Source of the DNA: Pseudomonadota bacterium
GTDB lineage: Bacteria > Chloroflexota > Ktedonobacteria > Ktedonobacterales > JADMIN01
Direction: 5' to 3'
DNA length: 54,563 nt
Assembly (NCBI GenBank): GCA_021324535.1
Contig: JAJPIU010000138.1
Coordinates: forward strand, 1 to 54,563
Positions within the stretch are counted from its first letter, which is position 1. Every line of letters begins with the position of its first letter. Below, piece after piece: positions 48,701-49,723 of the stretch. A program made the translations under genes and the position numbers. The notes under the pieces were generated by a model. It worked only from the letters and a program-made list of their open reading frames with translations. It was not told the origin of the DNA and did no database searches.

Positions 48701-49723
48701 ATGCCGCTCAGGAGATATGCCATGCCCGTCACTCGATCTGCCACACGCGCACGCCATTCGGGGCGATCCAAACAACTCGCGTCGTCTGCTCGCCAACCGC
48801 ATACACACGCCATTCTTGCCGCGCAAGTTGTTCGTCCTGACGCGCACTCAGGCATATCTGAGCCGCCAGCCGAACTGCCGCCGGTCATTCTCAGCGCGCG
48901 CCCATTGCTGGGAGCCTACCCCACGCTGGCGGAGCGTCTTCGCGAGGCGCGCTGTGAACTTGTGCTGGCGGCGACCTGGGAACGCCTTATGGTGAGCTGC
49001 GAGAAAACGTTGGCCGATGTCATCCTTGTGGATTACGACGCCGTGGAGCGCGCCTATCATGCGGGAACCGGGCGACAGCGTATATCCGGCCACCGGCTGG
49101 TATCGTTGCTGGCGCGCGGCCTGGCGGCGCAGACGGATAAGCGACCACGCGCGCTTGTCGTGCTCTCGCAGATGGATTATGCCGAACTCGAAGACCTGGT
49201 TCACCTGGGAATACACGCGCTTGAACGGCCCGATCAGCCGGAGCGGTTGGTGGGGCGCATCCTGGCGGCCTATCGGCGCGCCACGCTGAACCATTTGAGC
49301 CGCGACGGTCAGGCGCGCCAACAAGCCGTCAAGCCAGCCGCTTTGGTGACAGACGCCGCCTGGGCCGTGATCTCTACGGCGCTGGCGATGGCTGGCGTCA
49401 CAGCGCGCCGGGCGCGTGTGAGTGACCGCGCGGTGTTCGATGGGTTGTGTTCGCTGTTGCAGAAGAGCGCGCCCTGGCGAATGTATCCCGCTGGCTGTGG
49501 AAGCGTGAGCCTGGCGCGACGTAGGCTGGCGGCGTGGCGGGCGGCAGGCGTCTTCACACGGTTGGGGTGGGCCGCGCAATCGGGCGCGCACGACATCGAA
49601 CCCATTATGGCGCTGCCATGGGAACGTCTGGTGACGCCTGCGCCCGCGCCAGAGGTCGCCGTCGCCCGCGCCATACCGGCAGTGTCATATACCGATTGGG
49701 CGCTGGCTGCCCCCAGAGCATAA
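48701..49723 (+). CDS. Receiver-like domain fused to IS5-type (DUF4096-like) transposase N-terminal domain
   Basis: ADVILVDYD...ALVVLSQMDYAELEDLVHLGIHALERPDQPERLVGRILAAYRRA (REC-like) followed by LVTDAAWAVISTAL...RRARVSDRAVFDGLCSLLQKSAPWRMYPAGCGSVSLARRRLAAWRAAGVFTRL (DUF4096-like). Confidence 0.65.
   Translation: MPLRRYAMPVTRSATRARHSGRSKQLASSARQPHTHAILAAQVVRPDAHSGISEPPAELPPVILSARPLLGAYPTLAERLREARCELVLAATWERLMVSCEKTLADVILVDYDAVERAYHAGTGRQRISGHRLVSLLARGLAAQTDKRPRALVVLSQMDYAELEDLVHLGIHALERPDQPERLVGRILAAYRRATLNHLSRDGQARQQAVKPAALVTDAAWAVISTALAMAGVTARRARVSDRAVFDGLCSLLQKSAPWRMYPAGCGSVSLARRRLAAWRAAGVFTRLGWAAQSGAHDIEPIMALPWERLVTPAPAPEVAVARAIPAVSYTDWALAAPRA

Follow-up and report, generated by a model that had tools for sequence, protein, structure and literature searches.

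Can the N-terminal domain of an IS5-family transposase serve as the output domain of a bacterial response regulator? The question is raised by one gene in the stretch of DNA analysed here (the window, 54,563 nucleotides), which comes from a 4.65-Mb draft genome belonging to the same family as the Chloroflexota MAG Centralia_MAG_65 (G005). A sequence-only reading had interpreted the product of this gene as a receiver-like domain fused to a co-opted transposase domain.

Gene, start codon and genomic setting

The open reading frame occupies 48701-49723 (+), as the sequence-only reading had it, and is intact. The start placed there at 48701 did not hold equally well: ATG 48722 is the likelier start, because AGGAG at 48710-48714 ends 7 nt 5' of it. 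The gene, its domains and its surroundings are as follows.

45609..47537, minus strand: divergent GT4 glycosyltransferase
47746..48489, plus strand: upstream gene, GmhB-like HAD phosphatase relative in which the nucleophile Asp is missing
48490..48721, no strand: upstream region, 44% GC, unique in the genome (232 bp)
48722..49723, plus strand: pseudo-receiver-DUF4096 protein, 333 aa from the likely start ATG 48722 (48701 in the first reading)
48881..49300, plus strand: receiver-like (beta-alpha)5 domain, about residues 61-200, supported by AlphaFold, Foldseek and homologue alignment
49346..49564, plus strand: DUF4096 (PF13340) domain, the N-terminal domain of IS5-family transposases, residues 216-288
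49748..52477, plus strand: conserved downstream neighbour, a multi-membrane (polymerase/ligase-like) protein fused to a GT4 glycosyltransferase

The glycosyltransferase surroundings agree with the earlier placement of the gene inside an exopolysaccharide block, and only 24 bp separate its stop codon from the membrane/GT4 gene. The HAD relative on the other side has MRDR instead of DRDG and HMP instead of RKP, both of which are retained in 14 relatives; judging from these substitutions, it is likely a pseudoenzyme beside the pseudo-receiver. No cognate kinase adjoining the pseudo-receiver-DUF4096 gene was identified. A large GAF/HisKA_3 histidine kinase is encoded at 38407-40833 (-) of the window, and no link between it and the pseudo-receiver has been shown.

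No further copy of the gene was found in the source genome, nor was a second copy of the 232-bp region upstream of it. This region contains one sigma-70-like site (48635-48664) and an imperfect 20-nt inverted repeat (48533-48552/48687-48706, 15/20 matching), either of which may be due to chance. The repeat was considered as a possible element end or operator.

The N-terminal half is a putative pseudo-receiver

A Pfam scan of the N-terminal half, which had been described as REC-like, gave no direct match. In the AlphaFold model this half is composed of five alternating strand/helix units, with D111 ending strand 3; confidence of the full-length model is modest (mean pLDDT 55, pTM 0.35). Among PDB structures, the best Foldseek matches are response regulators, including EutV and full-length FixJ. 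Moreover, a homologue that is 28% identical (L006, in genome G013) matches PF00072 at 4.4e-11 and aligns to AdeR. By way of this homologue, the predicted model and the Foldseek matches, receiver fold or homology (PF00072) can be accepted, and the description of the N-terminal half stands on that basis.

According to the alignment, the phospho-Asp position is kept (D111, 49031-49033) and Ser156 occupies the T position, strand 1 is not followed by the metal-binding acidic pair, and Arg176 is found in place of the Lys. The protein thus does not have the complete five-residue receiver active site (DD, D, T/S, K). Since the acidic pair is missing and the Lys is replaced by Arg176, while D111 is kept, the aligned residues make this half a pseudo-receiver as defined for atypical response regulators (PMC12632262).

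Shorter relatives without DUF4096 are encoded in five genomes (G006, G013, G023, G012 and G021). Those in G006 and G013 are flanked by the same neighbours on both sides, from which we infer that the unfused receiver form is probably older than the DUF4096 fusion.

The C-terminal domain is homologous to the N-terminus of IS5 transposases

In transposases, the DUF4096 region is presumed to recognise the ends of the element. The domain reported at the C-terminus of the window protein is borne out by the PF13340 match of residues 216-288 (profile positions 1-75 of 76), with E=3.1e-14 and 53.4 bits against a curated cut-off of 34.3; absence of such profile similarity would have refuted the sequence-only reading. 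The NCBIfam IS5 model NF033580 is matched only at positions 5-83 of 258, below the cut-off of the model, and this is the portion ahead of the catalytic region. Residues 216-288 are therefore homologous to the N-terminal domain of IS5-family transposases (NF033580, PF13340), from which the window protein differs in having no DDE part and a fixed place beside one gene, and in that no element ends were found (there was no systematic search for ends).

The absence of the DDE part, likewise noted before, was examined with a model for which the catalytic parts of 19 IS5 relatives had served as input. It detected no DDE part in any of the six frames of the window; the orthologue locus and the other searched DUF4096-fusion loci likewise gave none in any frame, whereas two genuine IS5 copies (C22 and C2) from the source genome were positive.

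The window copy of DUF4096 is the most diverged, scoring 53 bits compared with 77 for the orthologue and about 93-103 for the ABM fusions scanned, and the GRPR and VTCW motifs of the IS5 consensus are missing from it. GC3 of the DUF4096 stretch is 0.77, and its in-frame codon score is 0.227, with -0.35 and -0.09 for the two remaining forward frames; a reverse frame comes close to it over this short stretch (0.20). Codon-position GC and codon usage are consistent with coding in frame.

The model of the domain is all-helical, and Foldseek returned nothing significant for it. Because no solved structure resembles the model, DNA binding by DUF4096 receives no support from the fold. A sequence search of the PDB with the window protein gave no match either, and a profile of the ABM-DUF4096 family yielded only chance-level matches to PDB sequences (E 0.37 or worse).

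The fusion and its neighbour are conserved in another genus

The REC-DUF4096 architecture, which the sequence-only reading had suggested seeking in other genomes, was found as one full-length orthologue, in Centralia_MAG_65, a member of a different genus of the same family. The two proteins are 34-35% identical overall, 39% in the receiver part (E=2e-26) and 32% in the DUF4096 part (E=1e-7); the domain of the orthologue matches DUF4096 with E=1.4e-21 and 77 bits. The membrane/GT4 neighbour is conserved as well, lying 26 bp downstream of the orthologue and being 35% identical to its counterpart in the window (E=2e-80). The C-terminus is thus kept in another genus next to the same neighbour gene, so that it is not the decaying, non-conserved tail that would have spoken against the sequence-only reading. 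The distribution is narrow: of 47 genomes of the order, only 2 (the window genome and Centralia_MAG_65) contain the fusion or a protein strongly matching the membrane/GT4 neighbour, and a genome-wide scan for proteins with both a receiver and DUF4096 retrieved, besides the window protein, only this orthologue.

The orthologue is separated from a MerR-type gene by a region that contains a 17-nt dyad (L068, 7690-7725). This dyad is probably the operator of the MerR-type regulator and, as it adjoins the MerR-type gene, it was not counted as a site of the orthologue protein.

Other DUF4096 fusions without a DDE part

Beyond what had been noted for this locus, the window protein is, on the evidence of domain matches, one of several DDE-less DUF4096 fusions in the order. 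They were collected by scanning loci of the order for DUF4096 domains that lie well away from the N-terminus and lack a DDE part. Long DUF4096 frames in G004, G105, G165, G182, G226 and G027 were rejected as read-through frames or ordinary transposases.

The ABM-DUF4096 fusion is represented by 8 copies in 7/11 genomes of the family (G000:C88, in the window's own genome, G004, two in G005, G007, G008, G009 and G010) and was not found in the remaining 389 genomes when 400 genomes of the phylum were sampled. The copy of the window's genome (G000:C88) is encoded at L131 1614-2402 (-) and has orthologues across the family. In several genomes, a short protein without a Pfam match, possibly secreted, is encoded near ABM-DUF4096.

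Kinase-like fusions comprise GAF-HATPase-DUF4096 in G023 and HATPase-DUF4096 in G017, and short DUF4096 proteins are present in G015, G017 and G023. Matches to similar kinases in G002, G009, G010, G029, G033 and G035 end before DUF4096, and the domain is absent from them. A near-identical copy of the DUF4096 end of the GAF-HATPase-DUF4096 protein exists elsewhere in G023 (L107 and L098). A further fusion, of the TPR-ATPase type, comes from a different family; it is a single case, without a counterpart in 4 other genomes of that family. The coordinates of two of these genes are given below.

L107 1459-3033, minus strand: GAF-HATPase-DUF4096 (G023)
L184 2719-6126, plus strand: HTH-AAA-TPR-DUF4096, 1136 aa, HTH and DUF4096 lying at opposite ends (G061)

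The domain tree groups the kinase fusions with the short ones and the ABM fusions with each other, and it places the receiver fusions apart from both. Because these sets fall separately, more than one recruitment of DUF4096 is likely, although this remains an inference from the tree.

Alternative explanations

The tail might be what remains of an IS5 element that inserted into a receiver gene, in frame but decaying and translated by chance read-through; the window DUF4096 is indeed diverged, and genomes of the order contain many IS5 copies. Nevertheless, such a remnant is very unlikely, given that the fusion and the downstream gene are retained in another genus at about 35% identity, that the frame is open and has coding-type codon use, that a DDE remnant occurs in no frame, and that the DUF4096 module recurs on other proteins. 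Alternatively, DUF4096 may have been fused to one receiver family twice, independently in the window genome and in Centralia_MAG_65. In the free tree of the 73-column domain the two receiver-fused copies stand apart, on long branches, and the domain is readily recruited in this order. A single clade of the two copies is not shown by these data, but it is not rejected either (AU p=0.32); furthermore, both copies have Ala-Arg where other regulator fusions mostly have Cys-Trp, and the common gene order and the homology of the receivers argue for one event. Hence, we regard two separate fusions as improbable.

A different possibility concerns the function of the domain. DUF4096 might be a protein-protein or dimerisation module, the pseudo-receiver acting on the glycosyltransferase machinery by binding a partner. 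The all-helical domain without a structural match to any solved DNA-binding protein leaves room for this, and tight pairing with one membrane/GT4 gene could signify a physical partnership. Against it stand the established view that the region presumably recognises element ends in transposases and the position of DUF4096, which follows several unrelated N-terminal domains just where an output domain is normally found. A purely protein-binding role is accordingly doubtful, yet it deserves more weight than either of the two scenarios above.

Proposed function and relation to known systems

The explanation that we favour, with some reserve, is that the protein is an atypical response regulator with an IS5 N-terminal domain as output, probably controlling its exopolysaccharide operon, and belongs to a wider set of DDE-less fusions. 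Its domain content, the lack of DDE, the orthologue in another genus, the conserved neighbour and the further fusions are observed; DNA binding, target, signal and direction of regulation are inferred. A signal other than ordinary phosphotransfer would reach the pseudo-receiver and change its conformation or dimerisation, which would probably in turn control the exposure or dimerisation of DUF4096. The latter would then bind DNA, the promoter of the protein's own exopolysaccharide operon being the likeliest site. DNA binding is inferred because of the presumed binding role of this region in transposases, and the link to the operon because the neighbour gene is conserved and the gap is short. 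The earlier proposal of a transposase domain co-opted as the output of a (pseudo-)response regulator is thereby supported, with DNA binding and transcriptional regulation still unproven. Against the favoured explanation weigh the missing fold support for DNA binding, the lost IS5 motifs of the window copy, the separate positions of the two receiver-fused copies in the domain tree, the lack of an identified adjoining kinase, the modest confidence of the full-length model, and the presence of the receiver-DUF4096 architecture in only two genomes.

In animal transcription factors, DNA-binding domains of transposases have been captured by fusion to host regulatory domains; those cases are eukaryotic and come from different transposase families. 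No bacterial response-regulator case of transposase domestication was found in the literature searched, outside of which most subscription journals lie, so that a prior description cannot be excluded; neither of the two papers there that mention DUF4096 appears to concern such a case. Atypical response regulators with pseudo-receivers likewise combine a receiver fold lacking active-site residues with a following C-terminal domain, the difference being that the output domain of the window protein is the transposase-derived DUF4096 (PMC12632262). The review of these regulators never uses the word 'transposase' (PMC12632262). TldR proteins, nuclease-dead repressors derived from TnpB, offer another parallel, in that a bacterial mobile-element protein has lost catalysis, become associated with host genes and acquired a regulatory role (PMC13418256). 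TldRs are RNA-guided, whereas here a small N-terminal domain would have been reused by fusion.

Across the order, it is about evenly balanced whether the IS5 N-terminal domain has turned into a movable output module that was added on several occasions to sensory or signalling domains with no relation to each other (ABM barrel, pseudo-receiver and GAF-HATPase, with HTH-AAA-TPR in another family), yielding regulators with a transposase-derived DNA-binding domain, DNA binding being inferred here too. The low-copy ABM and receiver fusions are open to direct testing. A part of a mobile element has apparently been recycled as a gene-control module, insofar as the inferred DNA binding and regulation hold; if so, repeated recruitment of one small IS5 domain would be a route by which mobile elements supply bacterial regulators.
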